DNA of 64,000 bases from Anaerolineae bacterium (GTDB taxonomy: Bacteria > Chloroflexota > Anaerolineae > Aggregatilineales > Ch27): contig JABLXG010000016.1 of the NCBI GenBank assembly GCA_013178165.1, positions 1-64,000 of the forward strand. The letters run 5' to 3'. The notes below the pieces were generated by a model. That model was not told where the DNA came from and did not search any database. It saw nothing but the letters and a program-made list of their open reading frames with translations. Position numbers and translations under genes: made by a program. Shown here one piece after another: positions 3,163 to 38,279 of the stretch (positions are counted from its first letter, which is position 1; every line of letters starts with the position of its first letter).

Positions 3163-5160
3163 TCAAGATCGGGTTTCCCCTGGCGCCAGGATGGCCACGC
3201 CTTTCGGAGGCAGGGTTAGCACCGGGCCGACAGGCTGGTCGGTGATCAAGTCGACGTAGGGCTGCTCAAGGGCCACCTCGCGGGTGTCGCTGCTGTGGTT
3301 AAGCGCGAAGATCAGCGGTTGATCAGCCTGCCAGCGCAGAGCAATCTCAACGTCTTCGGGCGCCTTCAGCGGTGGGCGGATGTTGAGGGCGCTCAGCACA
3401 TATCTCACCACCGAGTCTACCAGGCGTCGGTCACCGACTGTTCCTACATAGAACGCCCGCCCTTTACCATAGCGGTTGAGGGTAATGGCCGGGCGACCCA
3501 TGTAGAAGTCGCTCCCGTATGTCGCCAGAACCTCTGCCGTTTCAGGAACCAGGATGTCACACCATACGGTTGCCGCGCCGGTGATGCCACTGTTTCCAGC
3601 CGCCTGGATCGGAATGCTGGAACCCTGGTAAAGCGAGTCGTATTCGTCCACTGTAGCTCCACACAGGGTACTGAGCAGGCCTGGCAGGGGCCGGTCAACG
3701 ACGGTGTTATGGAAGTCCTTGACACCGCTTCTGGTGGTAAGCACCACTGTTCCCCCACCTTCAACGAAGGCCTCCAGTTTCTCTGCCAGGTTGTCTGGCA
3801 GAATGTACAGCGCCGGGACAATTAGCATTCTGTAGCCAGAGAGATCAGCATGTGGCCCGACAATATCAACGGCGATATGCTGGCGGTGTAGAGCAGCATA
3901 GTAGTCGTAAAGATGTGTTGCGTAGTCGAAGTCCGGGTTATTCGGCTGGATCTGGAAGGCAAAGCGACTGTCGTACGACAGCAGCATAGCGACTTCTGTG
4001 CGGGTCTCCGTTGCTTCCAGCGCCGCGGCAATACGCTGCAGTTCGCTGCCCAGAGCGGCAACTTCGGCGTAGCGGCGGCGCGGCTGTCCGTCGTGATCGA
4101 GGATGCCATGCCAGAACTGCTCCGCGCCAAAGCGGGCAGTCCTCCAGCGGAAAAATACGATCCCATCTGCACCATGGGCAATAGCCTGATACGCCCATAA
4201 CCGGATCTCGCCAGGGCGGGGAGCGGCGCCCATTGTCTGCCAGCCAGTGATCCCACTCTGGCTTTCCATCACCCAGAAATTTTGCCGCTTCAAACCGCGC
4301 ATTGTCGCATGGCTGAGGGCCAGCAGTGCAGGAGGAGCGGCCTCATTGCTCCAGAAACCGCGCGGATAGTTATCCCAGGTGACCAGATCCAGAGGCTCGG
4401 CCAGATCAAAATAGTCCAACTTGTCATACTTGAAGCCCATGAAGTTATGAGTGATGAACTGATCCGGACATCTCTGGCGCAGGATAGCGATCTGCTCCTG
4501 CTGTAAGGAGACATAGGTAGCCGAAATGAAACGCCGGTAGTCGAGATCGAGGCCAGGGTTGGAGATCACGGCGTTGGCCAACGGTACAGGAATCTGTTCC
4601 CAGGCCGTATACTCATGACTCCAGAAGACTGTTCCCCAGCATCGGTTGAGCACATCTAGCGTCCTGTACCTTGCCCGGAGCCAATCCTGGAATGCCGCGC
4701 GGCAGTTCTCGCAGTAACAGCGATCCCCGAACTCGTTGTCGATCTGCCAGCCGATTACGTTCGGATTGGCGTGGTAGTGTTCAGCCATGGCCTGGGCGAT
4801 CTGGCGGGCATGAGTCCGGTAGAGGGGATGGGTCGGGCAGTATTCTCGCCGACCGCCATAGGTTGCCCGGCTATTGTCCTCCCGGACGAGGAACAATTCA
4901 GGCCGGTTATGCATCAACCAGGGGGGAGGCGAGGCCGTTGGTGTGCCCAGAACGACACGGATTCCATGCGCCGCCAGCACGTCAATTGCGCGGTCCAGCC
5001 AGGCAAAGTCATAGCGACCGGGTGCGGGTTCCATCTGGCTCCAGGCGAACTCTGCCAGTCGAACCACGTTAAAACCGGCCTGCTGCATCAGTCGGGCGTC
5101 TTGCGCCCAGCGATCTTCCGGCCAGTGTTCGGGATAGTAATCTGCACCGTAGTAGATCAT
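3163..5160 (-). CDS. Beta-galactosidase, glycoside hydrolase family 42
   Basis: The enzyme hydrolyses terminal beta-D-galactosides, here probably oligosaccharides brought in by the transporter encoded upstream. The 665 residues match the GH42 length. The protein has no signal peptide and should be cytoplasmic. The TIM barrel starts at residue 1 (DYYPEHWPEDRW). The acid/base is Glu143 in the IDNEFG motif and the nucleophile is Glu299 in VMESQSG. Cys108, Cys148, Cys150 and Cys153 form the four-cysteine zinc cluster seen in many GH42 enzymes. A glutamine-amidotransferase-like trimerisation domain and a small C-terminal domain follow. It is the last gene of the LacI-CUT1 operon, which suggests that the imported ligand is a beta-galactoside. 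The exact linkage cannot be told from sequence. Confidence 0.93.
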   Translation of the reverse strand: MIYYGADYYPEHWPEDRWAQDARLMQQAGFNVVRLAEFAWSQMEPAPGRYDFAWLDRAIDVLAAHGIRVVLGTPTASPPPWLMHNRPELFLVREDNSRATYGGRREYCPTHPLYRTHARQIAQAMAEHYHANPNVIGWQIDNEFGDRCYCENCRAAFQDWLRARYRTLDVLNRCWGTVFWSHEYTAWEQIPVPLANAVISNPGLDLDYRRFISATYVSLQQEQIAILRQRCPDQFITHNFMGFKYDKLDYFDLAEPLDLVTWDNYPRGFWSNEAAPPALLALSHATMRGLKRQNFWVMESQSGITGWQTMGAAPRPGEIRLWAYQAIAHGADGIVFFRWRTARFGAEQFWHGILDHDGQPRRRYAEVAALGSELQRIAAALEATETRTEVAMLLSYDSRFAFQIQPNNPDFDYATHLYDYYAALHRQHIAVDIVGPHADLSGYRMLIVPALYILPDNLAEKLEAFVEGGGTVVLTTRSGVKDFHNTVVDRPLPGLLSTLCGATVDEYDSLYQGSSIPIQAAGNSGITGAATVWCDILVPETAEVLATYGSDFYMGRPAITLNRYGKGRAFYVGTVGDRRLVDSVVRYVLSALNIRPPLKAPEDVEIALRWQADQPLIFALNHSSDTREVALEQPYVDLITDQPVGPVLTLPPKGVAILAPGETRS

Positions 5161-5241
5161 GACATTCTCGTTTCCACAGGCAGGTCTGCACAGCCACTAT
5201 ATGAAATTGCCAGCAGGCCCAACAGAAGGCAGGAATCTGGA

Positions 5242-6084
5242 TCAGCCTTTGATGGCCCCGGCAGTGATGCCTTCCATGAAGCGACGCTGCAAGATAAGAA
5301 ACAGGATCAGGAGCGGCACGACGCTGACCACCGCCAGACCCATCATCTCCCGGTAAGCGGAATATCCCGGCGGGCCAGAGAAGGTCATCATCTTAAGGGG
5401 AAGGGTAAACAGGGTAGGGGATTTCAGGTAGATCAGCGGGCCGAGATAGTTGTTCCACGATCCAAGATAGAAGATTAGGCCCAGGCTGGTCAGGCCAGGG
5501 GCAATGATGGGCAGCACTACCCGCCGGAAGACCCCGAATTCGCTACAGCCATCAATCCGGGCGGCATCAAGAAGTTCGTTGGAAACGCCGCTGATGTACT
5601 GGCGCATGAAAAAGATACCAAAAGCGTTGGCCGCCCCCGGCACAATCAACGGCAGGAACGTGTTGATCCAGCCGAATTCCTTCATGAGTACGTAGGAAGG
5701 TACCATGGTTACTGCACCAGGGATCATCATTGTTCCCAGGAGAAACATGAACAGGATACGGCGACCGGGGAAATTATACTTGGCAAAGCCATACCCCCCC
5801 AGGGAGCAAAAGAACAGGGCGAAGGCTGTGCTGGTGGTAGCCATGAATAATGTATTCCAGAAGGCTCTGAGCGCTCCAGCTTGCTCAAAAATGTATCGAT
5901 AGCCATCCAGACTCATGTTCTCGGAGATCAGGATTGGAGGGCGGGCGAAGACCTCCTCCTGCGGTTTGAAGGAGGTGCTCAGCATCCAGACAAAGGGGAG
6001 AATCATGAAGATCGAGATGGCAATCAGCAGGATGTGGATGCCGGCATCGATAAGTAGATTTTTGAGGCGGTCGCTTGTGGTCAT
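5242..6084 (-). CDS. CUT1 sugar ABC transporter permease, MalG type
   Basis: One of two inner-membrane subunits of a carbohydrate importer. The 280 residues contain six predicted hydrophobic segments, starting with LLIDAGIHILLIAISIFMIL. The cytoplasmic EAA loop that docks the ATPase is visible in the AARIDGCSEFGVFRRVVLP region, about residues 170-190. It follows the MalF-type gene with a 45-base gap and precedes the GH42 gene. No ATPase gene is present in the operon, so an ATPase encoded elsewhere must energise it. Confidence 0.9.
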   Translation of the reverse strand: MTTSDRLKNLLIDAGIHILLIAISIFMILPFVWMLSTSFKPQEEVFARPPILISENMSLDGYRYIFEQAGALRAFWNTLFMATTSTAFALFFCSLGGYGFAKYNFPGRRILFMFLLGTMMIPGAVTMVPSYVLMKEFGWINTFLPLIVPGAANAFGIFFMRQYISGVSNELLDAARIDGCSEFGVFRRVVLPIIAPGLTSLGLIFYLGSWNNYLGPLIYLKSPTLFTLPLKMMTFSGPPGYSAYREMMGLAVVSVVPLLILFLILQRRFMEGITAGAIKG

Positions 6085-6129
6085 GGGCCAGATCCCCTTT
6101 CTGGTGCAGCAGCCGGTATAGCGGGGGTG

Positions 6130-7077
6130 TTAGCCGGTATCACGATCAACGTACTTGAACTGGAGGTACGTCAATACGAATATCAACAGAGCGTAGACAT
6201 AAGCCTGGGCGGAAGCCCGGCCAAAACGAAAGTCGCCGAAAGCAACGTTGTAAATCTGTACCAGCGGCGTTGTGGTTGCCCGTACAGGACCGCCATTGGT
6301 GAGCGACATCACTTCGTTGAAGAGGCCAAACGTGCCAATGGTGGACAGGACAACCGAAAACAGGATGATCGGACGGAGCAGGGGAATGGTGATCCGAAAG
6401 AACGCCTGTACTGCTGAAGCGCCGTCAATCATGGCGGCCTCGGTTAACTCATGGGGGATGGTTTGCAGGCCGGAAAGCATCAGAACCATGTTGTATCCTA
6501 GCCAGCCCCAGACTACGAGGATGCATAACGACACGCGCGCCCACCAGATGTCTTCCAGCCAGGGTACAGGGTTGAGGCCGATGCCCTGTAACAGCAGGTT
6601 GAAAAGCCCACCATTATGCTGGAACATCAGGCCAAAGGTGATGCCCGCTGCGATCATGGTCGTGACGTAGGGGGCGAAAATCAGCGTCCGGTAGACCTGA
6701 AAGCCCTTCACCCGTGGCGAATTGAGCAGGACTGCCAGCACAATGGCCGTAAATGTCATGATGGGCACGTACATGACGAACAGGATGAGGCTGTTGGTGA
6801 TCGACTGCCAGAAGACGCGACCGCCCGCACCCAGCAGAAACTCAAAATTCTTCAGCCCCACAAACTCCATCGGCCGGACGCCGTTCCAATCCTGGAAAGA
6901 GAGAAACAGCGAGAATCCCACCGGGAACAGGCCGAAGATGATGAACAGCACATAGAAGGGCGAGATAAACACATACGCCCAGCGATTTCTGACTATCTCA
7001 CGCCACAGGTGATGCCACCTGCCGTGCCCTGACAAGGCTTGAGGTGCGACTGGTGAAGTGATCGGCTGTTGATCCAT
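6130..7077 (-). CDS. CUT1 sugar ABC transporter permease, MalF type
   Basis: The partner membrane subunit of the MalG-type protein encoded next in the operon. The 315 residues begin with a polar cytoplasmic stretch of about 30 residues and then show six hydrophobic segments, the first being YVFISPFYVLFIIFGLFPVG. The EAA loop reads TEAAMIDGASAVQAFFRITI, about residues 213-232. It is separated from the binding-protein gene by 69 bases that contain a perfect hairpin (7106-7129). Confidence 0.9.
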   Translation of the reverse strand: MDQQPITSPVAPQALSGHGRWHHLWREIVRNRWAYVFISPFYVLFIIFGLFPVGFSLFLSFQDWNGVRPMEFVGLKNFEFLLGAGGRVFWQSITNSLILFVMYVPIMTFTAIVLAVLLNSPRVKGFQVYRTLIFAPYVTTMIAAGITFGLMFQHNGGLFNLLLQGIGLNPVPWLEDIWWARVSLCILVVWGWLGYNMVLMLSGLQTIPHELTEAAMIDGASAVQAFFRITIPLLRPIILFSVVLSTIGTFGLFNEVMSLTNGGPVRATTTPLVQIYNVAFGDFRFGRASAQAYVYALLIFVLTYLQFKYVDRDTG

Positions 7078-7105
7078 GAGTTCCTCCCGCCCGGAGAGGT
7101 GCTAG

Positions 7106-7129
7106 GAGGGGGGCCGCGCGGCCCCCCTC
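7106..7129 (-). other. Intercistronic GC hairpin between binding protein and permease
   Basis: A 24-base perfect palindrome (each arm 12 bases, all G or C apart from one A/T pair) lies 17 bases after the binding-protein stop. There is no T-run, so it need not terminate all transcripts. A likely role is to protect the upstream binding-protein mRNA or partly attenuate the permease genes. The same arrangement recurs in the other three CUT1 operons of the window. Confidence 0.6.
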
Positions 7130-7146
7130 AGGCCGACAGGCGAGGG

Positions 7147-8460
7147 TTATTCGAGGTTGGCTGCAATCTCTTCCGCCGCCAGATCAAGCGCTTCCTGCGC
7201 AGACATCTGGCCGCTGGCGTACGATTGGATAGCCACGGATACCGCCCCGTTCATCATACTGTAATTGGGGCCGTAGACCGTGCCATCCGGGATTTTGTGC
7301 ACAACATCGGCGTAGATGAGCTTGGTCTGCTGACCGGCAAAGAATGGATCGGGTTCGGCAAAGGCCGGATCGTCGTAGGTTGTCTCCAGAGCAGGCACGA
7401 AACCGCTTTGTCGGAACATGGCAATCTGGCTCTCTTCGGTGCCGACAGCGAACTGAATGAACGCCCAGGCAGCCTCCTTGTTCTGCGACTGCTCAGGGAT
7501 CACAAAGGCCGAACCGCCGTCATTGGAAGCCCGTACCTGGCCCTCTTTGACCGCTGGCATATAGGCTACGCCCCACAGACCTTCAGTGCCGGGGGCAATC
7601 CAGCTCTTGAGGAAAACGTCCATCCACGAGGCCTCGATCAGGGTGGCGACTGGCGTGCCGCCCTCTTCAGGCAGAGCTGCAAATTCGGCGTACCAGGCGT
7701 CTGTCCATTCCAGATTATCGGTAACCAGATCCTCTTCCCAGAACTTGCCCAGCAGTTCCAGCGTGGCCACGTTCTCCGGGCTGTTGACCGTAATTTCACC
7801 GGTCTCGCGGTCGTAGTAGCCCAGGCCCTGTTGCCACAGGATCATCTCATAGAGACGGCCGTAGTTGTTAGCTTTGTTGTGGGCAAAGCAGTAGAACCCC
7901 GTCTCTTCCTTGATGGTCCGGCACATGTCTAGGTAGCCATCCCAGGTGGCTACCATCTCGGAGACAGCTTCAGGATCGCTCGGGAGTCCGGCCATGTCGA
8001 GCACATCACGGCGGTAGTACATCACCACCGGCCCGGAGTCCCAGGGCATCCCATAGTAACGGCCGTCCAGTTCTGCATTGGGCCAGCGGTAGGCATTGGT
8101 AATGGGGAGGTAGGGGGTAACCCATTCAGTGAGGTCGGCCAGCCCACCCAGGTGGACGAATTCACTCAAATGGCTATCTTCAACCAGGCAGACGTCGCAT
8201 GCGCCCTCACCGGCGGTCAGGGCCAGCGGAAGGTTGGTGTATACGTCCGCAGGCGGATAGTATACGATCTCCACTTCGACATTGGGGTAGGCTTCATTGA
8301 AGGCGCTGAGGACCCCGGCGGCTTCTAGGGTGTCGCGGATGGCTGCGGTCCAGCCCCAGACCACAATTTTCCCTGAGACATCGCTGCTTTGAGCACGGAT
8401 TGCTATCGCAGGAACCACGACAGCAATGACGATCAACAACAAGGCCAACTTTCTGAACAT
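7147..8460 (-). CDS. Extracellular sugar-binding protein, CUT1 family
   Basis: Captures the sugar outside the membrane and delivers it to the two permeases encoded downstream. The 437 residues start with a Sec signal peptide (MFRKLALLLIVIAVVVPAIA, probably cleaved after the alanine-rich end). The mature part begins with a beta strand typical of this fold (GKIVVWGWTA). No lipobox cysteine is obvious. It is encoded directly behind the LacI gene and ahead of the permeases and GH42 enzyme, so a galactoside ligand is plausible. Confidence 0.9.
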   Translation of the reverse strand: MFRKLALLLIVIAVVVPAIAIRAQSSDVSGKIVVWGWTAAIRDTLEAAGVLSAFNEAYPNVEVEIVYYPPADVYTNLPLALTAGEGACDVCLVEDSHLSEFVHLGGLADLTEWVTPYLPITNAYRWPNAELDGRYYGMPWDSGPVVMYYRRDVLDMAGLPSDPEAVSEMVATWDGYLDMCRTIKEETGFYCFAHNKANNYGRLYEMILWQQGLGYYDRETGEITVNSPENVATLELLGKFWEEDLVTDNLEWTDAWYAEFAALPEEGGTPVATLIEASWMDVFLKSWIAPGTEGLWGVAYMPAVKEGQVRASNDGGSAFVIPEQSQNKEAAWAFIQFAVGTEESQIAMFRQSGFVPALETTYDDPAFAEPDPFFAGQQTKLIYADVVHKIPDGTVYGPNYSMMNGAVSVAIQSYASGQMSAQEALDLAAEEIAANLE

Positions 8461-8517
8461 GGTGCTCTCCTTCTTGCCTAGATCGGGCAGTGCCCAGCAA
8501 CCGCAGGTGAGAATCGT

Positions 8518-9501
8518 TCAGGCCGAGGATCGTCTGATAAACTGCGTCTTGAATACAATCTCCTTTCTGTCCATCACTGGATGGCGAATTCTTTCCAGCA
8601 ACGTACGGACGGCGAAGCAGCCGATCTCGCGCATGGGCTGCCGTATGGTGGTCAATGGTGGGCAGGCAAAAGCTGCTGCCGGGATGTCGTCAAAGCCAAC
8701 GACGGCGACATCGTCCGGCACCTGGCGATTTGCATCACGCAGAGCTTGTATGGCCCCAATAGCCATCTGGTCATTCTGGGCAAAGACGGCAGTCAGGTCC
8801 GGGGCGATGCGTAGCAGGCGTTGCATGGCATCATAGCCGCTTTGGTAGGACCAATCTCCCCCCTGGACAAGGTCTGGCTCAAACGGTAACCCAGCTTCTG
8901 CCAGGGCGCGCTGGTAGCCAGTGGTACGACCATTGTCCACACCCGGGATCGTCCCGATTCGGCGGTGGCCTTGGCTCAGGAGATAACGGGTAGCCATGTA
9001 TCCGCCTTCGATGTTATCGACGTTGAGGGTGATCAGGCCGGGTTGGGGAGGGTGAGCTACTGCGACAACCGGTATACCCTGCTCGATCAGCCAGTCGATA
9101 TAGGCGCGATGGCTTAACTCAGGACTGGCGACAAAAACGCCATCGACTTGCCGCTCACTCACCGCACGCCATTCCTCGGAATCGGGCTTAGCATCCGGCT
9201 CGACAATCGATAACAGAAATACATAGCCATGGCGTCGCGCCTCTTGCTCCGCGCCAGCCATGACCTGCACATAGAAGTCCTCATCCAGGCTGCTTGAGAT
9301 CAGGCTCAAGGTGTGCGTGCGTTGGGAGACCAGACTGCGGGCTACAGAACTGGGGCGATAACCCAGCCTGTCAATGATCTGTTGAATGCGGTCACGGGTT
9401 TCCGGGGCGACATCTGGTTTGCCGTTGATAACGCGGGAGACTGTCTGGTGGGAAACGCCTGCCTGCCTGGCAACATCCTGAATGGTCACTCTTTTAGGCA
9501 T
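8518..9501 (-). CDS. LacI-family transcriptional regulator of the GH42 operon
   Basis: A sugar-responsive repressor of 327 residues from ATG 9501; a longer frame would start at a TTG at 9510. The N-terminal helix-turn-helix and hinge (TIQDVARQAGVSHQTVSRVI, about residues 5-24) is followed by the periplasmic-binding-protein-like sensor domain. It is the first gene of the minus operon, so it should repress itself together with the transporter and beta-galactosidase. A perfect palindrome right after the presumed promoter (9533-9556) is its likely operator. Confidence 0.92.
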   Translation of the reverse strand: MPKRVTIQDVARQAGVSHQTVSRVINGKPDVAPETRDRIQQIIDRLGYRPSSVARSLVSQRTHTLSLISSSLDEDFYVQVMAGAEQEARRHGYVFLLSIVEPDAKPDSEEWRAVSERQVDGVFVASPELSHRAYIDWLIEQGIPVVAVAHPPQPGLITLNVDNIEGGYMATRYLLSQGHRRIGTIPGVDNGRTTGYQRALAEAGLPFEPDLVQGGDWSYQSGYDAMQRLLRIAPDLTAVFAQNDQMAIGAIQALRDANRQVPDDVAVVGFDDIPAAAFACPPLTTIRQPMREIGCFAVRTLLERIRHPVMDRKEIVFKTQFIRRSSA

Positions 9502-9532
9502 AATGCCCAATCCAGTGTCTGTTTCTGGCTCC

Positions 9533-9586: not shown

Positions 9587-9729
9587 CTCTTTGGTCAGGA
9601 TATCCATGTCGGATGGAACGGGTTGAGTACAACCACTCAGGACATCTTTTCCCATACCGTCTAAACTGGCATTGTGGTTGGCAGGTGGCGATGGCAACTG
9701 TTCTGTTGCGGGCGAGGAGGCGAGCCGAT

Positions 9730-10314
9730 ATGCCAAATGCATTTGAGGAGTACCTGAGGGAACACGGCGATGAACTGCTTGCGCCGCTCAAGCAGGTGGT
9801 GAACTTCGCAACGACCCGCCGCTACGTGGCGGCTGCCTGGGAGGCGCTGGATATGCAGTCAGAGCCGCCACAAGACCTCCTCCAGCAGATCCAGCAACAG
9901 GTTGCCGAGTGTACGGCGTCCCGTCTGGTCATACAGTTGCTGCTCGAAATCGGCGGGAACGAACCGGTGTTCATGGGTTTCCTGGATGATATCACCGGGC
10001 GGTTGATGCTTACCTGTTCTCGGGATGATCTAATCGCGGCTGTGACTTTTGCTATCAACACTGCCTTCCTTGCCGAGACGCTGGCGGAAGAAGGGTTCGG
10101 CCTTCAGCAAGGGCTGGCAGGTTACCGCCGGGCCTTCATGGACCTTGGCAGGGCCGCCGCTGAATTGATCTCCGCCGGGGACGACGCTGCAAAGTCCCGG
10201 GCCATGGCGCGCCTGTCTGAGACTGTCAGGGCTTATCTCCCGCTGTTCACGGCCACCATTCAGGAAGAAGCTGAGCGCCAGGCTGGTGACGACGAGTCCG
10301 GCGAGTCTGGCTGA
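9730..10314 (+). CDS. Unknown helical protein, first gene of the giant aminotransferase locus
   Basis: I do not recognise a family. ATG 9730 is chosen because AGGAGG lies at 9715-9720; the frame extends upstream to 9613 but without a comparable ribosome site. The product has 194 residues and appears almost wholly alpha-helical, with no signal peptide or membrane segment and an acidic tail (GDDESGESG). It is divergent from the LacI operon and lies 283 bases before the SPFH gene on the same strand. The 10315-10597 gap shows no gene or clear promoter. A link to the two following genes is inferred from order only. Confidence 0.6.
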   Translation: MPNAFEEYLREHGDELLAPLKQVVNFATTRRYVAAAWEALDMQSEPPQDLLQQIQQQVAECTASRLVIQLLLEIGGNEPVFMGFLDDITGRLMLTCSRDDLIAAVTFAINTAFLAETLAEEGFGLQQGLAGYRRAFMDLGRAAAELISAGDDAAKSRAMARLSETVRAYLPLFTATIQEEAERQAGDDESGESG

Positions 10315-11731: not shown

Positions 11732-14700
11732 ATGCCCCACCTGCCTGATCCCATGTCATTCTTCCGCCTGAAGCCGATCCGGGCGGCACGTGTATCGGAA
11801 GTCAGCGAGACCACCGCTGCGGCGCCGGTTCCAGCTGAAGAACGCATCAACTTTCACATCGGGAACCCGCTGCAGGACCCGCGGCTTTCGTCGGCGTTCC
11901 TGCGCACGGCGCTTGGCCTGGACATCGGCCAGGTGGAACTGAATGACGCGGAACCAGACGCGATTCTGGAGCATCTGGGGTGGGACGAGGCCGACAAACC
12001 CAAGCTTGAGTTCCTGATCCGCACGATTCGCAGAAGTGCCCCGTATATGCCCCGTGGCGGGTATTCGGTCAAGGCTCCCCATGCGCTGGTCAAAACCTTC
12101 TGCTCCTGGCTGGAACACCAGCAGGAAGCGCTGCACTATGACACCGGGGAACAATCCGGGCGGCGGGAGATCATCCTGGCTTCCGGCGGGGTTCAGGAAA
12201 CGCTGCGCGTCATCCTGTTCACGTTGTCTTCCAGCCTGGAAACGCTTCCGGCTCGCATCCTGTGCTACGGCTGTGATCTGCTGCCGCCATTGAAAGCGAT
12301 CCCCGGCCTGCTGTTTGAGAATCTGCCGGCGGATGAGCAGCGGGCCTGCATGCAGATCGAGCAAACGCTGGCGGCCTCCCCCCATACGCCAACGGTTGTG
12401 GTACTTGGTAGCGTGCCGGGGGAGGTGACGCGGCGCCGGCTGCGCGTGATGAGCCTGGAGCAGCCTCTGTTCTTCATCGAAGCCAACAACGCCCCCAACC
12501 ACCTTTCCCTTGCCCGCGAGGCCAAGCTTGTCCAGCGCGTCATCCGGATTCTGACGCCAGCCATTTTCTCGCCGCGCTGGCACACCCTCTCCACCGTATT
12601 TGTCGTGGGCAACGCCGACTTTCTCAGCGCGATTGAGAATGTTCATTTCAACCTCAAGGGGACACCCTCAGCGTCAGAGATCGAACTGCTGACATTTCTG
12701 CTCGACCAGCAACCTGCCAGCCCTGCTCAGGATTCCCCGCTGGCTATGCCACAGGCCAGGCCATCCTTTGAAGGGTTGGCGTTGAGCGGCGCTACGGAGG
12801 CGGCTCTGGTGCACCTTGCTCATGAAGCTGGGCTGCACCTGGAGGCACTGCTGGATGTTCACAACCAGACGGTCGAGCGCTCGCTGAAAGTGCTGGAGGA
12901 GAAGACCGACCTGTTTGCCCGGCGGATTCAGGGCGCCTGGAAGGACCGCCTTTTTGATGAATTCGCCGGTGTTGAGGTCAGAGAACTCCTCGATCTGGTG
13001 TTGCACAACCTTCATCGATCGGAAACCAGCCAGGCGCTTTTGCGCAGTTTCCTGAGCGTCTTTGTCAGGCATCAGCCACAGTACAGGCCGGAATCTTGCC
13101 TGGTCACCAGCGGCTCATCGCGCACGGCGCTGGGTATCCTGGGCTTCCACTGCGGGATCACCGAGGTGGTGATCCCCGATCTAAGCTGGTCTTACGAGCA
13201 GTGCTTCCCGCGCGTTCATGCTGTGCCGCTGACGGAATCGCTGGAGCTTGACGCCGAAGCGATGATCGCCAGGATTGAGGAGTTGTGCTGGCGCGATCCG
13301 TCATGGCCGCGGCGCGGCGCGGTGGCCATCAATAACCCGCATAACGCTACCGGACGCATCTTCCGCGAGGAGGCGGTCCAGCGGCTGGTTACCTACTGCC
13401 TGGAGCGCGGTATTTATGTCATTGACGATCTGGCTTACCAGAACGTCGCGCCGGTCAACGACCTGCCTGAGATCAAGACGATTCGCCAGATCGCGACCGA
13501 ACTGGTGCAGCTGGGACTCGTCGATGAGCACCACGCCGATCGGGTGATCACCGTGCATTCCATGTCGAAGACCGACTGCCTGGCCGGGGCCAGGCTTGCT
13601 GTCGTGGAGATCCGCGACTCGGAATTGCGGCAGCGTTTTGAAGAGGTCAATGCCCACATCCAGCCGAACCTGGCTGCTGTGTTGATCTGCTATCTGTTCT
13701 ATCGCGGCACAACGCAGGCGGTGCGTACCTACTGGCATTTGCGCAATGCCATCTACAGTGAACGAACCCATGCCCTGCTGACGGCCGTGGCCAATCTCCC
13801 GCCCGATCGCAATCCGTTCCAGTTGTCCATCATCCCGCCGACGGGGAGTATGTACCCATTGCTACGCATCGCGTTGCTCCCTGCCGGCCTGTCGCTGGAC
13901 TGGCTGGCTTCCTCGCTGGCGCGGCGCGGGATTGGCCTGTTGCCCCTGGCGACCTTCGCCCGCACGGAAAAGGGATTCGAAACCGGCAGGACGACTTTCC
14001 GCCTGACTCTGGGCGGCGTAGATAACGCGGCGACGCTCCTGGCCAAGACGCGCCGCCTGCTCATCGATCTCAACCGGCTGATCGCGGAGGAGGAGGCCCG
14101 CTATAACCGCAAGCGTCTGCCGGTCCGGGTACCGGAATCGGCGGGTAGTCGGTCCGCGGAACTGGCCCAGGCCATGGATGTCATCGCCCGGCGTCTCCTG
14201 CAGCATTGCGCTCACGATAGAACCTGCCGCCATCTGCTGGCGCTGCCGCTGCTGGACCCCGAGCGGGCGCAGCGCGACTTCCTGGAGCGCTATGCCCCGG
14301 AACGCCTGGAAGTATTCCGTCTCCGTTTGCTCGATCGGGCGCTCATCAACGACGAGCTTACCCGGCAGGCGCTGGCTAACAACGGCACCTGGCTTGCCGA
14401 AAGGTTGCAGCGCGAATTCATGAAGGACTCGCTGGAGCGTCGCCAGCAGTTGTTCCGGCTGCGCTCCTACGACCGGACTGTCCATCCCACGCAGATGTAC
14501 TCGCTGCAGGCGGAGCTGGCCCTAGACGCCATCCTGAACGCGCTGATTGCCGGTCAGCCGGTCGCCCCGGTGTTGATCGAGCGGGCGGCGCAGGAACTGG
14601 TGAAGGAATATTTGGGGCTGAACGTTAGCGTCAATTCGCAACAGGAAGCCGACGAAATCCTGCTTGATCTCGCCGCGCTCACCGCTGGTGAGCAGTACAG

Positions 14701-17347
14701 CGAGTTATTCACTGATGCACCGCTGACCTCCTTTCTATCTTTCTGGAGCGATTGGGATGGCAGCAGCAGACCGTCGGGGCAGGGGCATCAGCTGGCGGCA
14801 GCTGTAGTCATGGAGAATGTGCAGCGGATGGCACGCATCTTCAACCTGTTGCGGCAGGTTGACCCGGATGTTGCCGTCAGCCCTGAACTGCTGGCGGAGC
14901 TTGACCAGCTAGCGCAGCGTAACCAGCGCTTTAAGCGGCTCCTGAACGCCATCACCCAGCTTACCCAGCAACTGGAAGGTCGTTACCGGGGCGTCCTGCC
15001 TTTTGCTGTGGAGTCGACGCCGCTGCAGCGCCTGGCCGCGCGCTGGCACCTGCGCCGCGATCCGGCCAGGGCGCTATGGCAGCACAACGACCGCTACGAA
15101 CAGAAGATGCTGGAGCTGCGCCGGGAACGACGCCGGACGCTGGAATATTACTTTGCCCTGAACAAGCAACTGCGCAAACAACTGTACGCCCTCATTCCGG
15201 CTATTCAGGCAAACCGCGCTGCCGAACCTCTGTTGCGGGAGGTGGTGGGCTACCGGGATATTCTGCAGCGCGTGGTGATCACGCCGCGCATCCAGCAGGC
15301 CCTGATTACCGCCCGCGATCAGTTTGCCATTGATACAACCGTGTATAACATGCATGAGATTAATACCCTCTCCGGCAAGTACGGCAATCCGGGGATGACC
15401 CTGGCTGTCCAGATCAGCCTATCGACCAGACCGGACGCCTTGATCTCGCTTGACAGGAAGATGCGCACGCAACTGGAGCAGGCGCGGCGGGAAAACCCGG
15501 CGGTTGACCTGCCTTCTATCTGGCTGATTCCGCTGTTTGAAGACAGGGAGTCAGTCCGGAATGTGCGCGCCTATCTGGATCAGGTCTGGGATTACGCCAC
15601 CCAGAGCCGCCACACGGCTCAGTCCCCGCAGAACCGCTTTGCCGAGATGATTGATGAGATCTTCATCGCCGGTTCTGACCTGAGCCAGCAGATCAGTCAG
15701 GCTACAGCAGCACTCCTGTACCACAGGGCCAAGTACGATGTCCAGCTGTGGCTGGTGGAGCATGGCGTTGCCGAGCATGTGCGCATCAAGATGGGCAGCG
15801 GTGAGCCGATGCAGCGCCAGGGCGGGTACTACTCCCGTGTGGCAGGTCTGCCTGCTTTCCGCAATTCGGCGGAAAATCAGCACCGGTTCTCACGGCATCT
15901 GCTGGCGGCGGCGCGCAAGAGCACGGCCTATGCGGTGACGCCGTTGCAGGGGGTCTTTCTGGGCGGCGACCTGAGGACGTTTCAGAGCAATCTATCGGAA
16001 CAGTTGCGTTTCCTGCCCGTGCGTGATTTTGTCAGCCTGCTTCATCATGTGCGGGAGTCGCAGGAGATTCACCGCCGCGACCTGATCCGCGCTGCCGAGA
16101 TGACCGCCGAGAGCCGTCTGGTGGCCCAGAGCCGCAGCCTGCAGGAACTGGAACGGCTGACCGTCGGGACGATAGAAGCTGTCTACGAGCAGTTTCTGGC
16201 GGAACTGACCGATAGCTTCCGGCACATTCTCTATGGCCGGGAAGAAGATGTGTTTGGCATCCACATCATCTCCTACTTCATCGGTCGTTCCATCCCTCAG
16301 TTGCGTGACCGCCCCACCAGCCGGCGAACGCTGGAGACCGGCGCGGAGCGCGGGCAGCGTATCCTGGCGAATATCGCGGAAATCATCCCGCTGTCCAAAC
16401 AGGGGAGTCTGTTGCGGGCCATCGCGCATAACCAGGCGCAGACGGCAGTGCTCGGCGTCAACCAGCTCACCACCGGGCTGTTCCGCGCCCTGGAACGCTT
16501 TGCCCAGAAGACCTTCGTGGCAGCCGAGCAGGAGCGCATGATCGGGGAGAGGTTGTTGCCGTATCTGCCCGTGTACGAGATTCTCAGCACCCTGCGCGTC
16601 TACCACGACTACCGGGGTGAGTTTCTCCGCACCATCGAGACGGCCTTCCCCGCTGGCAATTCCGCTTTTGTGGCGCTGCGGGAGGATAACGACGCCCTGC
16701 AGCGTTATCTGCCGCTGTTCCAGCAGGAACTGCTGCGCCGCCATGGTGTGAATGTCAGCGATTTCTTTGCCAATGGCGTCTTTATCCCCGATCTGCTGCC
16801 TACCCTCCGGCCCGATCTGGCGGTGCTGTTGCAGAAGGACCTGTTCAACACCGATCTTGAGGTGATGCTGGAACAGGTGTCCGGTCGGATCGCGGACGAC
16901 TGGCGGACGGAGGTTGACCGGCTGCTACAGGTGCCGCGCCAGGTTCACTACTGGCGTTCGCTCATCTGGGAAGTGATCGGCGAATCGATCTACCAGCGTG
17001 TGCAGAGCTTCGGCGAGCTTGCTACCGCTCTGTACGCCTTTGCTGCTACACGCTCGTTCAGCGCCACACCGCCGACTGTCCGGGGGGCCAAGCTTTCGCC
17101 CGCCCTGGCAGGATTCTTCCGCACCGCCCGCGCTGATGACGAAATGCGCGACCTGCTGATTGGCGCGATCGAATATCTGAACGCACTGACGGAAGGTAGC
17201 TTTGAGATGCCCGTCAGCATCATCAGGGCGATGAACGACGTGGAGCGCCTGGCCCAGATTGAGGAAAGCGCCCTCCCGCCGGAAAAGCAAAACCTGTTCC
17301 GCCATTGCCTGCTGCAGATTGCCCGTCTGGTTGGCGAGAACGGGTAA
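11732..17347 (+). CDS. Giant fusion protein: two aminotransferase class I/II-like domains plus a PEP-carboxylase-like region
   Basis: From ATG 11732 the product has 1,871 residues. A TTG at 11684, with GAGG at 11670-11673, is an alternative start adding 16 residues. Residues of about 30-350 resemble a class I/II aminotransferase but lack an evident PLP lysine. Residues of about 400-800 form a complete fold-type-I PLP site: Asn535 in NNPHNATG, Asp566 and Tyr569 in IDDLAY, Lys613 in HSMSK and Arg621 eight residues later, with the spacing of aspartate aminotransferase. The remainder shows PEP-carboxylase-like landmarks in the right order: HPTQ (His918), IPLFED (Glu1270), AGSDLSQQ (Asp1316), GSGEPMQRQGG (Arg1362), LQGVFLGG, RPTSRR (about 1527) and RAI (about 1562). 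The spacing from His918 to Glu1270 (352) resembles His138 to Glu506 (368) in the E. coli enzyme. Several catalytic residues differ, for example the lysine of SDSxKD is Gln. The PLP domain is well supported. The PEPC relationship is read by eye. Confidence 0.8.
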   Translation: MPHLPDPMSFFRLKPIRAARVSEVSETTAAAPVPAEERINFHIGNPLQDPRLSSAFLRTALGLDIGQVELNDAEPDAILEHLGWDEADKPKLEFLIRTIRRSAPYMPRGGYSVKAPHALVKTFCSWLEHQQEALHYDTGEQSGRREIILASGGVQETLRVILFTLSSSLETLPARILCYGCDLLPPLKAIPGLLFENLPADEQRACMQIEQTLAASPHTPTVVVLGSVPGEVTRRRLRVMSLEQPLFFIEANNAPNHLSLAREAKLVQRVIRILTPAIFSPRWHTLSTVFVVGNADFLSAIENVHFNLKGTPSASEIELLTFLLDQQPASPAQDSPLAMPQARPSFEGLALSGATEAALVHLAHEAGLHLEALLDVHNQTVERSLKVLEEKTDLFARRIQGAWKDRLFDEFAGVEVRELLDLVLHNLHRSETSQALLRSFLSVFVRHQPQYRPESCLVTSGSSRTALGILGFHCGITEVVIPDLSWSYEQCFPRVHAVPLTESLELDAEAMIARIEELCWRDPSWPRRGAVAINNPHNATGRIFREEAVQRLVTYCLERGIYVIDDLAYQNVAPVNDLPEIKTIRQIATELVQLGLVDEHHADRVITVHSMSKTDCLAGARLAVVEIRDSELRQRFEEVNAHIQPNLAAVLICYLFYRGTTQAVRTYWHLRNAIYSERTHALLTAVANLPPDRNPFQLSIIPPTGSMYPLLRIALLPAGLSLDWLASSLARRGIGLLPLATFARTEKGFETGRTTFRLTLGGVDNAATLLAKTRRLLIDLNRLIAEEEARYNRKRLPVRVPESAGSRSAELAQAMDVIARRLLQHCAHDRTCRHLLALPLLDPERAQRDFLERYAPERLEVFRLRLLDRALINDELTRQALANNGTWLAERLQREFMKDSLERRQQLFRLRSYDRTVHPTQMYSLQAELALDAILNALIAGQPVAPVLIERAAQELVKEYLGLNVSVNSQQEADEILLDLAALTAGEQYSELFTDAPLTSFLSFWSDWDGSSRPSGQGHQLAAAVVMENVQRMARIFNLLRQVDPDVAVSPELLAELDQLAQRNQRFKRLLNAITQLTQQLEGRYRGVLPFAVESTPLQRLAARWHLRRDPARALWQHNDRYEQKMLELRRERRRTLEYYFALNKQLRKQLYALIPAIQANRAAEPLLREVVGYRDILQRVVITPRIQQALITARDQFAIDTTVYNMHEINTLSGKYGNPGMTLAVQISLSTRPDALISLDRKMRTQLEQARRENPAVDLPSIWLIPLFEDRESVRNVRAYLDQVWDYATQSRHTAQSPQNRFAEMIDEIFIAGSDLSQQISQATAALLYHRAKYDVQLWLVEHGVAEHVRIKMGSGEPMQRQGGYYSRVAGLPAFRNSAENQHRFSRHLLAAARKSTAYAVTPLQGVFLGGDLRTFQSNLSEQLRFLPVRDFVSLLHHVRESQEIHRRDLIRAAEMTAESRLVAQSRSLQELERLTVGTIEAVYEQFLAELTDSFRHILYGREEDVFGIHIISYFIGRSIPQLRDRPTSRRTLETGAERGQRILANIAEIIPLSKQGSLLRAIAHNQAQTAVLGVNQLTTGLFRALERFAQKTFVAAEQERMIGERLLPYLPVYEILSTLRVYHDYRGEFLRTIETAFPAGNSAFVALREDNDALQRYLPLFQQELLRRHGVNVSDFFANGVFIPDLLPTLRPDLAVLLQKDLFNTDLEVMLEQVSGRIADDWRTEVDRLLQVPRQVHYWRSLIWEVIGESIYQRVQSFGELATALYAFAATRSFSATPPTVRGAKLSPALAGFFRTARADDEMRDLLIGAIEYLNALTEGSFEMPVSIIRAMNDVERLAQIEESALPPEKQNLFRHCLLQIARLVGENG

Positions 17348-22416: not shown

Positions 22417-22540
22417 ACCATCGCTGGCAATAACCACGCCTGTGTGGCGCGGGAAAGGAGGGGGGCTATTGCAGTAAGGGTGTCCTGAGAAAAATGTACC
22501 GTCAGCTCTGTAGAGTCTCAGTTAAGGAGGAGGATACGCA

Positions 22541-23494
22541 ATGAACAAGACCCGCATCTTGGGACTCTTGTTGGTGGTCGCCCTGGTTGTCCTGGGTGGT
22601 CAGGCCGTGGCCCAGGAACCTGTTACCATCAGGATCGGGATGGTCAACTTCTCGCTGTGCTGCCCGTACTTCATCGGGATGTCCAAGGCCGTTGAAGAGG
22701 AAGCAGCGTACTACGACAACATCCAGCTGCTCATTACCGACGCCAATGGTGACGCTGAGAAGCTGACATCCGATGTTGAAGACCTGCTGGCGCAGGATGT
22801 TGACGGGTTGATTGTCAGCGGCGCCTGGCTGGAGGCAGCCCCGGCTGCTCTGGATGCCATCCAGCAGGCGGGTGTTCCGGTCGTCCTGGTTGACCGCAAG
22901 CTGAAGGGCGGCGACTATACCAGCTGGGTCGGCCCGGATAACTACCTCATTGGCGTGCAGGATGGCCAGTATATCGCCGACAGGCTCGGTGGTGAGGGCC
23001 TGCTGGTTGTCCTGCGCGGCGGCCCCGCGGACAACTCGATCGGTCTGGACCGGACCAACGGTATGCTCTCTGTAGTTGAAAAGACTAACATCCGCGTGGA
23101 GATGGCCCCGGACTTCGGCGGTTGGAGTTCCGATGGTGGCTTCACGCTGATGGAGGATATGCTGGCCCGCTTTGACAAGATCGATGCTGTCTTCTGTGAA
23201 AACGACTCGATGTGCCTGGGCGCGATGCGTGCCATCGCTGATGCAGGCCGCAGTGAAGAGATGTTCCTGTGCGGCGTCGATGGTGAGAAGGCTGCGCTGG
23301 AAGCCATCATGGCTGAAGGCTCCAACTACGCTTGCACTGGCCGCAACAACTCGGATCAGATCGGTCGCGCGGCGTTCCACCGGCTGATGGCCATCCTGGC
23401 CGGGGCCAACCCGCCGCATGACACCGTGCTGCCTTCGCCGTTGATCACGATTGACAACGTGATGCGGCACTACGATCCGGATAGTGTCTTCTAG
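22541..23494 (+). CDS. CUT2 substrate-binding protein (RbsB/periplasmic-binding type)
   Basis: A 317-residue extracellular binding protein. It has a Sec signal peptide of about 23 residues (hydrophobic core LGLLLVVALVVLGG, ending AVAQ) and a strong ribosome site (AAGGAGGAGG). The mature protein starts with IRIGMVNFSLCCPYFIG, the first strand and sugar-stacking loop of the type I binding fold. It is the last gene of the operon, 124 bases after the permease. The paired cysteines in the first loop are uncommon at that position. The ligand is unknown. Confidence 0.9.
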   Translation: MNKTRILGLLLVVALVVLGGQAVAQEPVTIRIGMVNFSLCCPYFIGMSKAVEEEAAYYDNIQLLITDANGDAEKLTSDVEDLLAQDVDGLIVSGAWLEAAPAALDAIQQAGVPVVLVDRKLKGGDYTSWVGPDNYLIGVQDGQYIADRLGGEGLLVVLRGGPADNSIGLDRTNGMLSVVEKTNIRVEMAPDFGGWSSDGGFTLMEDMLARFDKIDAVFCENDSMCLGAMRAIADAGRSEEMFLCGVDGEKAALEAIMAEGSNYACTGRNNSDQIGRAAFHRLMAILAGANPPHDTVLPSPLITIDNVMRHYDPDSVF

Positions 23495-23566
23495 GCAGAG
23501 GTTCGCTGTTTGAGCAGCAGGCGCCGGGAGCAAAGCCCTGCGCATAGCCCGGCCAGAAGATCGATC

Positions 23567-23605
23567 AGCCCCCGCAGTGTTGGCACGTTGGCCCCTGCGG
23601 GGGCT
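23567..23605. terminator. Hairpin between convergent operons
   Basis: A perfect 11-bp GC-rich stem (23567-23577 with 23595-23605) with a 17-base loop lies between the CUT2 operon (plus) and the following CUT1 operon (minus). It can serve both directions. No strong T-run follows. Confidence 0.6.
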
Positions 23606-23691
23606 TCATGTTGCAGTGACGTTCAGCGGGAAGATGCAGTCCGTGCCGGTTGCGCCGGGTGGCGTGTACCGGTTCAGGCGTAGAGTCCGGA

Positions 23692-24579
23692 CTACGCCTT
23701 TACCGATCCGCCGGTGAGACCCTGAATATAGTAACGCTGGAGCATCAGGAACATCAGGATGCTGGGCAGGATCGAGATGGTCACGCCGGCCTGCAATGCG
23801 CCCCAGTCCACCGCCCCGTACAGCCCGGTATTGACGCTGTTGAGCAGGATGGGGAAGGTGAACATCGATTGCTGGTTCATGAAAATCAGCGCGGCTAGAA
23901 ATTCGTTCCACGCATTCAGGAAGGCGTAAATCCCTGCTGTGATGATGCCGGGCAGCACAATCGGCAGCATGACGCGGTAGAGCAGGCTGACCGAGGAGCA
24001 GCCGTCCAGGAGGGCGGCTTCCTCCAGTTCCCGCGGGACAGTGTCAAACGAATTGCGCATCACAAACACGCCAAACGGCAACTGGAACGTGATATAGACC
24101 AGCGCCAGGCCGGGCAGCGTGTTCTGCAGTTTAAGGCGAGTCAGGATCAGGAACAGCGGCGTGAGGATAGACTGGAACGGGATCATCAGCGTGGCCAGGA
24201 TCATCAGGAACAGCACACCCTTGGCCGGGAATGAAAAGCGGGAGAAACCGTAACCGGCCAGTGTGCTGAGGATGATCGTCCCGACAACAGTCATCACCGA
24301 GACGCTGATGCTATTGAACAGGTAGCGTCCGGCGCCGGCCCCGAATTCGTTTAGCTTGAGGTAGTTATCCCAGGTGATGCGCGAGGGCAGGCCGGTCGGC
24401 GGGATGGCCGCCGCTTCCGCGGGGGGCTTGACGGACGTGATCACCGACCAGGAGATCGGAAACAGGAAGATCACCGCCAGGCTGATGAACACCAGGTATA
24501 GCAACAGCCTGGAAACCAGCCGCCGCCATGATATGGATCGACCCATGAAGAGAGAATGTGCAGTCATAGGCAGGGCCAT
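23692..24579 (-). CDS. CUT1 sugar ABC transporter permease, MalG type
   Basis: A 295-residue inner-membrane subunit with six hydrophobic segments, the first LLLYLVFISLAVIFLFPISW. The EAA loop reads EEAALLDGCSSVSLLYRVML. It starts 1 base before the MalF-type stop and is the last gene of the second CUT1 operon. Internal ATGs a few codons in are possible starts. Confidence 0.9.
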   Translation of the reverse strand: MALPMTAHSLFMGRSISWRRLVSRLLLYLVFISLAVIFLFPISWSVITSVKPPAEAAAIPPTGLPSRITWDNYLKLNEFGAGAGRYLFNSISVSVMTVVGTIILSTLAGYGFSRFSFPAKGVLFLMILATLMIPFQSILTPLFLILTRLKLQNTLPGLALVYITFQLPFGVFVMRNSFDTVPRELEEAALLDGCSSVSLLYRVMLPIVLPGIITAGIYAFLNAWNEFLAALIFMNQQSMFTFPILLNSVNTGLYGAVDWGALQAGVTISILPSILMFLMLQRYYIQGLTGGSVKA

Positions 24580-24580
24580 C

Positions 24581-25525
24581 TCAATAACTGATCTCGCGGT
24601 GCAACAGGCGCAACTGCAACATGCTCAGGATCACCAGGAAACCCATCAGGACAAGCGACAACGCCGCGCCGTAGCCCATCTTGAAGTAGGTGAACGAGTT
24701 GTTGAAGATCCAGTAGACGACGGTGATCGTCTGGTTGCGCGGGCCGCCGCGGGTCATGATGTAGAACTGGTCAAAGGCCAGGAACGATCCGATGACCGAA
24801 AGCACCAGGGCCAGGGCGATGGTCGGGCGTAGTAGCGGCAGGGTGATATGGCGCAGCCGCCCCAGGTAGCTGGCACCATCCACCATAGCGGCCTGGTAGA
24901 TCTCCTGAGGGATGGCCTGCATGCCGGTTAGCAGGAGCACCATGGTAAAGCCAACCGTCTTCCAGACTACTGACACGATGATGGCAAATAGAGCCGTGTC
25001 AAACGATCCCAGCCAGACCAGCGATCCCTGAAGCAGGTTGACCTGCCGCAGAATGGTATTGAAAGGACCAACACGGTCGTTGAGCAGCCAGACCCACAGC
25101 AGGCTGGATGCGCCAAGGCCGATCACCACAGGGATGAAGTACGCCGTCCGGAACAGGCCAACCCCACGCAGGGGGAGGTTGACCAGCAGGGCCAGCACAA
25201 ACGCCAGGATGAAAATCGGCGGGGTCACCAGCAGGGTGTAGCGGATGGTGAACCCCAGGCTTGTCCAGAACTGACGGTCGGCGGCGAGGGTGTCGTAGTT
25301 GCCCGAACCAATGAAGCTTGGCGTGCCGATCAGCGGCCAGTCGTGAAGCGACATCCAGATGGTCATCAGCAGGGGGATGATGAAGAAGAGCAGGGTGAAG
25401 GTGACCGCTGGCAGCACAAAGAACAGGCCGGCCAATTGCCGGCGAGAAGGCAGGTGCCTTGCCCGGTTACGTCCCTTGACAGCGGTTTCTGCGGGTCTGT
25501 TCCTGATGGTCTCCATTTCGCTCAT
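24581..25525 (-). CDS. CUT1 sugar ABC transporter permease, MalF type
   Basis: A 314-residue partner permease. ATG 25525 is chosen; the longer frame to 25588 would start at a TTG inside an intercistronic hairpin. A basic cytoplasmic tail is followed by six membrane segments, the first LAGLFFVLPAVTFTLLFFII. The EAA loop reads YQAAMVDGASYLGRLRHITL. It lies between the binding-protein gene and the MalG-type gene. Confidence 0.9.
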   Translation of the reverse strand: MSEMETIRNRPAETAVKGRNRARHLPSRRQLAGLFFVLPAVTFTLLFFIIPLLMTIWMSLHDWPLIGTPSFIGSGNYDTLAADRQFWTSLGFTIRYTLLVTPPIFILAFVLALLVNLPLRGVGLFRTAYFIPVVIGLGASSLLWVWLLNDRVGPFNTILRQVNLLQGSLVWLGSFDTALFAIIVSVVWKTVGFTMVLLLTGMQAIPQEIYQAAMVDGASYLGRLRHITLPLLRPTIALALVLSVIGSFLAFDQFYIMTRGGPRNQTITVVYWIFNNSFTYFKMGYGAALSLVLMGFLVILSMLQLRLLHREISY

Positions 25526-25557
25526 CTCTACTGCATTGCCGGGCCGGAATGTGGCCA

Positions 25558-25598
25558 GCAACTGGGTTTGACCCCCAAAGGCGGCCAAACCCAGTTGC
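25558..25598 (-). other. Intercistronic hairpin between binding protein and permease
   Basis: A perfect 13-bp inverted repeat (25558-25570 with 25586-25598) with a 15-base loop lies between the binding-protein stop and the MalF-type start. No T-run follows. It occupies the same position as the hairpins in the three other CUT1 operons and is a candidate for 3'-end protection or partial attenuation. Confidence 0.6.
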
Positions 25599-25627
25599 GT
25601 TCTTAAAGGTCGAGCAGCGGGGCCGGG

Positions 25628-26899
25628 CTAATCCTGGACCTGAGCCATGATCTCCGTGAACTGCTGCTGAGCATACGCAATGGCCTCGTCGATCTGGCCG
25701 TCAAAGACTGCCTGCTGGATCATCGCCAGCCAGGGGCCATTGGAGTCGTTAAAGAGCTGGTTGTAGACCAGGCTGTAGGGCGTCCGGCCAAGCGCCATCG
25801 CCTGGGCGTTGGTGGTCAGGCGCGGGTCCTCTTCAAAGTACTTGTTCTCCGCCAGGTCGGTGCGAACCGGCAGGGAAGCCGTCCGGGCGAACATCTCAAG
25901 CTGAACTTCGTCTGAGAGCACCCACTCGATAAACTCGAATGCTTCCTCAGGATACTTCGAACCGGCAGGAATGCCAATCGAGTCGCCACCGGCGAAGGAG
26001 GAGACGCCCCCTTCCTTGCCGGGCAGGAAGGTGATGCCAAAGTCGATCTCTGGATGTTCGTTCTTCAGGGTGCTGATCGAGAACGCGCCAGAACCCATCA
26101 TCCCGATCTTGCCGGAGAAGAACGCGCTCAGGAATTCTGCGCCGGCGTCAACCAGGGCGGTCTCTGGCATCAGCCCCTCAGTCCACATCTGATGGTAGAA
26201 CTCCAGCGCTGCCTTGACCATCGGATCGGTCAGTGTCGCTTCGGTGGCGTCTTCATTGAGGACATCACCACCGCTGGCCCAGATCAGGGGCAGGAAGGTG
26301 AAGGCGTTGCAGCCTGCGCAGGCGCCGGAGAAGTAGAAACCATCGATATCCTCACCCAGGGCGGAGATGGCTACTGCAGCGTCGTAGATCTCCTGCCAGT
26401 TAGTCGGTGGCTGCTCAGGGTCCAGGCCGGCTTGCCGGAACAGGTCCTTGTTGTACAGCAGCACCGAGGCTTCCGCGTTGAACGGCAGGGCGTACAGGCC
26501 GTCTTCATAGGTAGCCAGACGGATATGCGAAGGGCTGAGGGTATCAAAGAACGGCAGCCCGGCAGCAAGCTCGCTGATCTCGGTTAACTGCCCGGCAGCG
26601 GCGAACTGTGGCACGTAGATCAGGTCGATGGCCAGCAGATCCGGCGGCTCGCCAGCCGCGATGGCAGTCCCCAGCTTGGTGATGTATTCCGCAGCCGGGA
26701 TCAGGGTGACTTCGATCTGGTTGTCGTGGGAGGCGTTCCAGGCGTCAGCCAGGGACTGCACGAGTGCTGCGGCTGAGTCACGCGACCAGAAGGCGATGGT
26801 CACCGGCTCCTGGGCTGAGGACGGCAGGGACAACGCAAGGGTGGCCAGGAGGATCGCCAGCACGGCGACGACTCTGGCATGGCGGGACAGGCGTTTCAT
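25628..26899 (-). CDS. Extracellular sugar-binding protein, CUT1 family
   Basis: A 423-residue solute-binding protein with a Sec signal peptide of about 29 residues (core VVAVLAILLATLALSLP, then SSAQ). The mature N-terminus EPVTIAFWSRDSA is the usual first strand of the family. A CAGCNAF segment adds a vicinal pair of cysteines, about residue 205. Its operon encodes a putative glycoside hydrolase and a LacI regulator, which suggests an oligosaccharide ligand. Confidence 0.9.
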   Translation of the reverse strand: MKRLSRHARVVAVLAILLATLALSLPSSAQEPVTIAFWSRDSAAALVQSLADAWNASHDNQIEVTLIPAAEYITKLGTAIAAGEPPDLLAIDLIYVPQFAAAGQLTEISELAAGLPFFDTLSPSHIRLATYEDGLYALPFNAEASVLLYNKDLFRQAGLDPEQPPTNWQEIYDAAVAISALGEDIDGFYFSGACAGCNAFTFLPLIWASGGDVLNEDATEATLTDPMVKAALEFYHQMWTEGLMPETALVDAGAEFLSAFFSGKIGMMGSGAFSISTLKNEHPEIDFGITFLPGKEGGVSSFAGGDSIGIPAGSKYPEEAFEFIEWVLSDEVQLEMFARTASLPVRTDLAENKYFEEDPRLTTNAQAMALGRTPYSLVYNQLFNDSNGPWLAMIQQAVFDGQIDEAIAYAQQQFTEIMAQVQD

Positions 26900-37190: not shown

Positions 37191-37280
37191 AAGGCACTCC
37201 TCCTTTAGCTAACGGACTTCTGCGGTATACGTGGACAGAGCATCTGTGCAGTTGCTTGAAGGGTTCCCGGCACCTCCAAT

Positions 37281-38276: not shown

Positions 38277-38279
38277 GGA

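Follow-up and report, generated by a model that had tools for sequence, protein, structure and literature searches.

The Fusion Gene and Its Relatives

The window (the whole stretch of 64,000 nucleotides that was analysed) carries a pair of neighbouring genes, whose features are collected in Table 1: a very long reading frame for a protein in which aminotransferase and PEP carboxylase (PEPC)-like parts are fused and, directly upstream, a gene for an SPFH-like protein that had been missed in an earlier note on this DNA.

Table 1. Positions in the window of the partner gene, the fusion gene and the parts of the fusion protein (residue numbers are those of the fusion protein).
Feature	Position	Strand	Description or basis
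Partner gene P0002, 328 aa	10598..11584	+	N-terminal hydrophobic helix, SPFH/Band-7-like domain, long coiled coil
Fusion gene	11732..17347	+	1,871 aa; open frame; full length kept among relatives
Predicted degenerate aminotransferase large domain, residues 36-330	11837..12721	+	Strand/helix order in model as in second domain; sequence test not significant
Variable linker with long helix, residues 331-404	12722..12943	+	0-57% identity; low pLDDT at 328-362
Fold-type-I aminotransferase, active domain, residues 405-792	12944..14107	+	PF00155 1.9e-17; VIA Z 32.2 to LysN; invariant site residues
Lys613 codon, predicted PLP lysine	13568..13570	+	Invariant in full-length relatives aligned
Variable helical connector, residues 793-905	14108..14446	+	13-59% identity to relatives; helices in model
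PEPC-like TIM-barrel core, residues 906-1420	14447..15991	+	Foldseek and VIA matches to PEPC; PF14010 E 0.06
HPTQ, His918, end of strand 1	14483..14494	+	RTVHPTQ invariant; strand 913-916
Arg1186 in ITPRI, strand 3	15287..15289	+	An archaeal-type PEPC reads ITPRIPNP
Glu1270 of IPLFE, predicted metal ligand, end of strand 5	15539..15541	+	Profile alignments, invariance, model strands
Asp1316 of FIAGSD, predicted metal ligand, end of strand 6	15677..15679	+	Profile alignments, invariance, model strands
Arg1362 of GSGEPMQRQGG, after strand 7	15815..15817	+	Archaeal GSxPFRG; profile alignments, invariance, model strands
C-terminal helical part of PEPC-like module, residues 1421-1871	15992..17344	+	R1519, R1562 (LRAI), C-terminal Gly1871

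The fusion gene is real and intact: its frame has no internal stop, the opposite strand is not open, and conservation in relatives bears out the earlier reading of a single polypeptide of about 1,870 residues. Outside the source genome (an assembly of 4.19 Mb), full-length relatives of 73-96% identity are spread over further genera and families within the order (the closest, at 96%, in the MAG Chloroflexi bacterium S1bins113), and relatives of 62-72% identity were found elsewhere in the class. In a scan of named genomes 47 loci came up. Nearly all were from Anaerolineae, and the rest from MAGs labelled Bacteroidetes, Ignavibacteria, Acidobacteria or Neomarinimicrobiota; when the phylum to which one of the Neomarinimicrobiota members belongs was searched, nine genomes had the fusion, the lowest identity being 34%. 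Relatives of the same layout came from about 50 genomes, most of them Anaerolineae (Chloroflexota), with Ignavibacteria, Neomarinimicrobiota and other MAGs besides. The layout is identical in all complete copies aligned, and the aminotransferase is joined to the PEPC-like half in every relative read across that junction, so that the fusion proposed from one sequence was upheld by the survey of homologues.

Compared with 79%-identical relatives, the gene differs at 16, 10 and 43% of first, second and third codon positions, respectively, and the protein is under strong purifying selection; this third-position bias, together with the conserved full-length relatives, rules out a pseudogene or an assembly artefact. 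Trees were built separately for three parts of the protein (N-terminal, aminotransferase and PEPC-like). Most of their strongly supported splits were common, and strong conflicts between one part and another numbered 0 or 1; the fusion therefore looks old and seems to have been passed on as a single unit. In the anatomy of the protein, taken alone, we have high confidence.

The Aminotransferase Domain and a Probable Dead Copy

The active domain is recognizable by sequence: Pfam Aminotran_1_2 (PF00155) matches residues 446-765, with a score for the protein of 63.9 bits against a cut-off of 19.7. In an AlphaFold model of residues 1-792 (pLDDT 88, pTM 0.85), VIA-align found aminotransferases as structural neighbors, up to the LysN match in Table 1 (376 residues, 21% identity). 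The class I/II residue set is present—the PLP lysine K613, N538, D566, Y569 and the phosphate and carboxylate arginines R621 and R757, the last of which (in FRLTLGG) completes the PLP site—and all of these, as well as S460-G461-S462 and W486, are invariant among relatives. Asp566, Tyr569, Lys613 and Arg621 had been named earlier and stand, while the asparagine, previously placed at 535, is Asn538, the second Asn of NPHNATG. The complete PLP site and the Z of about 32 are shared with class I/II aminotransferases such as LysN and AspAT (PF00155); these, however, are normally homodimers of ~400 aa, whereas in the fusion the domain follows a copy that lacks the lysine and is itself followed by the PEPC-like module.

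That copy, residues 36-330, is probably a dead aminotransferase domain without the PLP lysine, because the order of its secondary structure elements in the model (E147, H153, E174, E193, H202, E221, H231, E246, E270, E289) matches that of the active domain (E456, H463, E478, E494, H508, E529, H546, E562, E605, E622). No lysine occurs at the expected PLP position, and hhalign gave no significant match between the two domains. The "aminotransferases" of the earlier note thus come down to one active domain and a second that is apparently dead. Aminotransferases usually take a partner tyrosine from the other subunit; here Tyr105, in the invariant Y105-x-PRGG of the N-terminal domain, could provide it. 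Active and dead fold-type-I domains are likewise paired in the glycine decarboxylase P-protein and in serine palmitoyltransferase LCB1/LCB2, but the reactions of these enzymes differ and they have no PEPC-like domain.

The Fold of the C-Terminal Half

No curated family in Pfam or NCBIfam matches residues ~823-1871, PF00311 included; searched against Pfam, NCBIfam and PADLOC, the whole protein returned only the aminotransferase and no defence family. Structure prediction had been set beforehand as the trial that could refute a PEPC fold here, and the AlphaFold model (residues 823-1871; pLDDT 81, pTM 0.80) came out in its favor. In a Foldseek search of the PDB all 17 matches with E<1e-3 were PEPCs (best 8.7e-8, probability 1.00), and the first chain of another kind appeared at E 0.23. 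VIA-align placed the archaeal-type PEPC 3ODM first (Z 19.1, 477 residues, 4.0 A, 16% identity) and gave Z 15-17 over about 550-640 residues to plant and E. coli PEPCs; the best non-PEPC match, itself an enolate-type barrel, reached 11.6, and other barrels of the malyl-CoA lyase/malate synthase type were at or below that value. Whole-chain rmsd to PEPCs was 4-6 A at 11-16% identity. As modelled, then, the C-terminal half has the PEPC fold.

The call rests on structure because the sequence scores from hhalign are weak: the C-terminal half aligned to bacterial and archaeal-type PEPC in a common register at P 0.01-0.03, and one of ten shuffled decoys scored similarly against the bacterial profile. 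A PDB sequence-profile search found nothing with an 8-row profile and, with a 39-row profile, only 3ODM at a no more than suggestive E of 0.61. The sole PF14010 match in the source genome falls in the fusion barrel (12.3 bits against a cut-off of 25). In each relative compared, conservation of the barrel core is about equal to that of the aminotransferase domain. Within the PEPC superfamily, we propose, the C-terminal half forms a third branch that has diverged strongly from the other two.

Active-Site Residues

PEPCs are of two types, bacterial/plant and archaeal. For comparison we used 19 canonical PEPC matches from the class and the archaeal-type PEPCs of eight Chloroflexota loci; equivalences were drawn from motif order and predicted strands. 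The PEPC landmarks listed in the earlier note are all present and in PEPC order, with those of the barrel at the C-terminal ends of predicted strands (YDRT/VHPTQ, LSFWSD/WDG, VVITPRIQ, AVQIS, WLIPLF/E, EIFIAG/SD, RIKMGS/GEPMQRQGG; a slash marks a strand end within a motif). Judged from sequence and model strands, the invariant H918, R1186, E1270, D1316, R1362 and R1562 would have equivalents common to both PEPC types, as would the C-terminal Gly1871, and Arg1519 (or Arg1527) fits the remaining PEPC arginine. We take His918, Arg1186 and Arg1362 to correspond to E. coli PEPC His138, Arg396 and Arg587.

The likeness is closest to the archaeal type (PF14010, 3ODM). Its motifs (QHPD, ITPRIPNP or ITLRVPNP, IPLFED, VFLARSDPALN, GVGSAPFRG, LPRAI and a terminal Gly) run parallel to those of the fusion (VHPTQ, ITPRI, IPLFED, IFIAGSDLSQQ, GSGEPMQRQGG, LLRAI and a terminal Gly), with VFLARSD answering to IFIAGSD and GS..R common to strand 7; however, the archaeal-type enzyme is a stand-alone protein of about 500 aa, whereas the fusion module, of ~1,000 aa, is about twice as long and falls below the PF14010 cut-off. 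With the bacterial/plant type (PF00311) it shares the fold over about 600 residues, the module length, HPT after strand 1, PLFE and the spacing of the strand-7 arginine motif, but it lacks GRGGxxGRGG, Lys546 and Arg581, and PF00311 enzymes are not known to be fused to aminotransferases. Equivalents of bacterial Lys546 and Arg581 are missing from the fusion and from archaeal-type PEPCs alike; at the Lys546 and GRGGxxGRGG features the fusion reads Q1319 and S1356 instead. The changed catalytic residues, once read as a hint of a new reaction, are therefore mainly differences from the bacterial type that archaeal-type PEPCs also show, and they lose their weight as an argument for one. The archaeal type is regarded as a PEPC while being strongly unlike the bacterial/plant type (review, PMC8100219).

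The strand-8 Gln of both PEPC types varies across the fusion family: Q1406 is present in the window's own copy but is replaced by L, M, I or R in distant members. The strand-2 (SFWSDWDGSxRPSGQG) and strand-7 (GSGEPMQRQGG) motifs are unlike both types and are nearly invariant in the family.

A handful of Chloroflexota genomes contain true PEPC genes of the archaeal type (PF14010; L114-L121), among them a divergent one of 547 aa that reads GHSDSALGYG (L120). PF14010 matches at two contig ends (C31, C66) of one genome (G486) are probably one gene split by the assembly.

The SPFH-Like Partner

A co-directional partner gene of ~325 codons lies directly upstream of the fusion gene at 38 loci, almost all of those with a readable upstream region. 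Five further divergent loci all have a gene of 322-345 codons in this position, and its start reads as the partner family in at least four of them. At several loci (such as L157 and L064) the two genes overlap by a few bases, as in co-translated operons. With stomatin, flotillin and prohibitin the partner has in common the layout of helix, Band-7-like domain and coiled coil, and 10 of 16 partner members gave weak Pfam Band_7 matches (best E 7.5e-5); it differs from them as a divergent subfamily that is tied to the fusion enzyme and whose member in the window, P0002, scores below the Pfam cut-off (16.2 bits against 23.6).

Proposed Function and Alternatives

PEPC and transaminases sit where carbon and nitrogen metabolism meet, and since PEPC makes oxaloacetate, a standard aminotransferase acceptor, the two catalytic modules can be chained. 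Directly supported are the intact gene, the fusion, the folds by prediction, the conserved residues and the neighboring partner gene. From these we infer the substrates, the carboxylation, the order of steps, channelling, the membrane location and the pseudo-dimer of the scheme that we tentatively favor, with somewhat less than even confidence: a scaffolded two-step enzyme, in which the PEPC-like half would make a 2-oxo acid, probably oxaloacetate, and the PLP domain would aminate the product. In the C-terminal half, Mg2+ or Mn2+ (at Glu1270 and Asp1316), His918 and several arginines would act on a phosphoenol acid, most likely PEP, which with bicarbonate would give a 2-oxo acid (in the likeliest case oxaloacetate). 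This acid would then be aminated, most likely to aspartate, in the central PLP domain with its Lys613. The lysine-less N-terminal domain probably stands in for the second aminotransferase subunit, leaving one active site per chain, and the upstream SPFH-like protein probably forms a membrane ring or cage that seats the enzyme. The most specific version—a third PEPC class and a pseudo-dimeric transaminase in one SPFH-anchored chain, turning PEP, bicarbonate and an amino donor into aspartate or a related amino acid—is possible, although we would not expect all of it to hold.

A canonical PEPC (a true PF00311 member) is encoded elsewhere in the source genome (G000:C19), so a plain anaplerotic role for the fusion is not needed. 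Canonical PEPC was found in 9 of the 21 fusion genomes checked (the source genome and 8 of 20 further ones), which rules out the fusion as a replacement for a missing PEPC; with canonical PEPC in only some of its genomes, the fusion neither simply replaces that enzyme nor depends on it. It was found in 11 of the 298 genomes that were sampled in the class, a patchy occurrence that suggests an accessory role.

The main rival to a route from PEP to an amino acid is a PEPC-like domain that has kept the enolate chemistry of the superfamily for a different substrate (another phosphoenol or 2-oxo acid) or for an electrophile other than bicarbonate, with the aminotransferase converting the product or supplying the substrate. 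The low identity to every solved PEPC, only 11-16%, the family's own strand-2 and strand-7 motifs and the presence of canonical PEPC beside the fusion, in the source genome included, all speak for such an enzyme, but of the catalytic residues that the two PEPC types share all are kept, bar the strand-8 Gln, and we rate it as a serious though rather unlikely alternative. We think a non-catalytic role of the PEPC-like half improbable, whether as a ligand sensor or as a structural part, by which it would regulate the aminotransferase or hold it in position on the SPFH scaffold: such a role would suit the degraded state of several canonical PEPC motifs, the want of a curated profile match and the large helical additions, but not a barrel core held as closely as the aminotransferase domain, nor the invariance of His, Glu, Asp and Arg of the catalytic type. 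A generic TIM barrel with added helices and chance motif matches, without PEPC kinship, is very improbable and largely refuted: sequence-profile scores alone are near background, but the structure search below E 0.001 gives only PEPCs, far above other barrels.

The folds of the individual parts are known ones; of the PEPC-like branch, of the fusion and of the fixed SPFH-like partner we found no earlier description. A full-text search of open papers, with most subscription journals outside its coverage, returned no description of the fusion and no report of a PEPC of either type fused to a transaminase. Although conserved across several phyla, some 1,000 residues of the protein carry no Pfam or NCBIfam annotation. 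Should the enzyme carboxylate PEP, nature would have a third type of PEPC and a way to go from PEP to an amino acid within one chain; otherwise an old fold would have taken on a new reaction. In a testable way, the near-constant pairing of the fusion and the SPFH-like gene would link SPFH scaffolds to a specific enzyme.

Other Genes of the Window

The genes downstream of the fusion (in the window an IclR regulator, an aldehyde dehydrogenase and a sugar-type ABC transporter) showed no conservation across the loci compared. Upstream of the SPFH-like gene, a 233-codon ORF (9613-10314, plus strand) had no Pfam match and belongs to no family common to three or more other loci. Sugar-type ABC binding proteins and permeases, a LacI regulator and a GH42 beta-galactosidase (3163-9510, 22502-26899, 35898-44890) mark a carbohydrate-utilisation region. 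On the minus strand lie two very large redox proteins of 1,504 and 1,052 aa (51913-56427 and 57006-60164) with several FAD/NAD and 4Fe-4S domains, one of which has more than one pyridine nucleotide oxidoreductase stretch; together with a CCG/4Fe-4S protein at 48108-49592, they resemble a complex of the heterodisulfide-reductase type.
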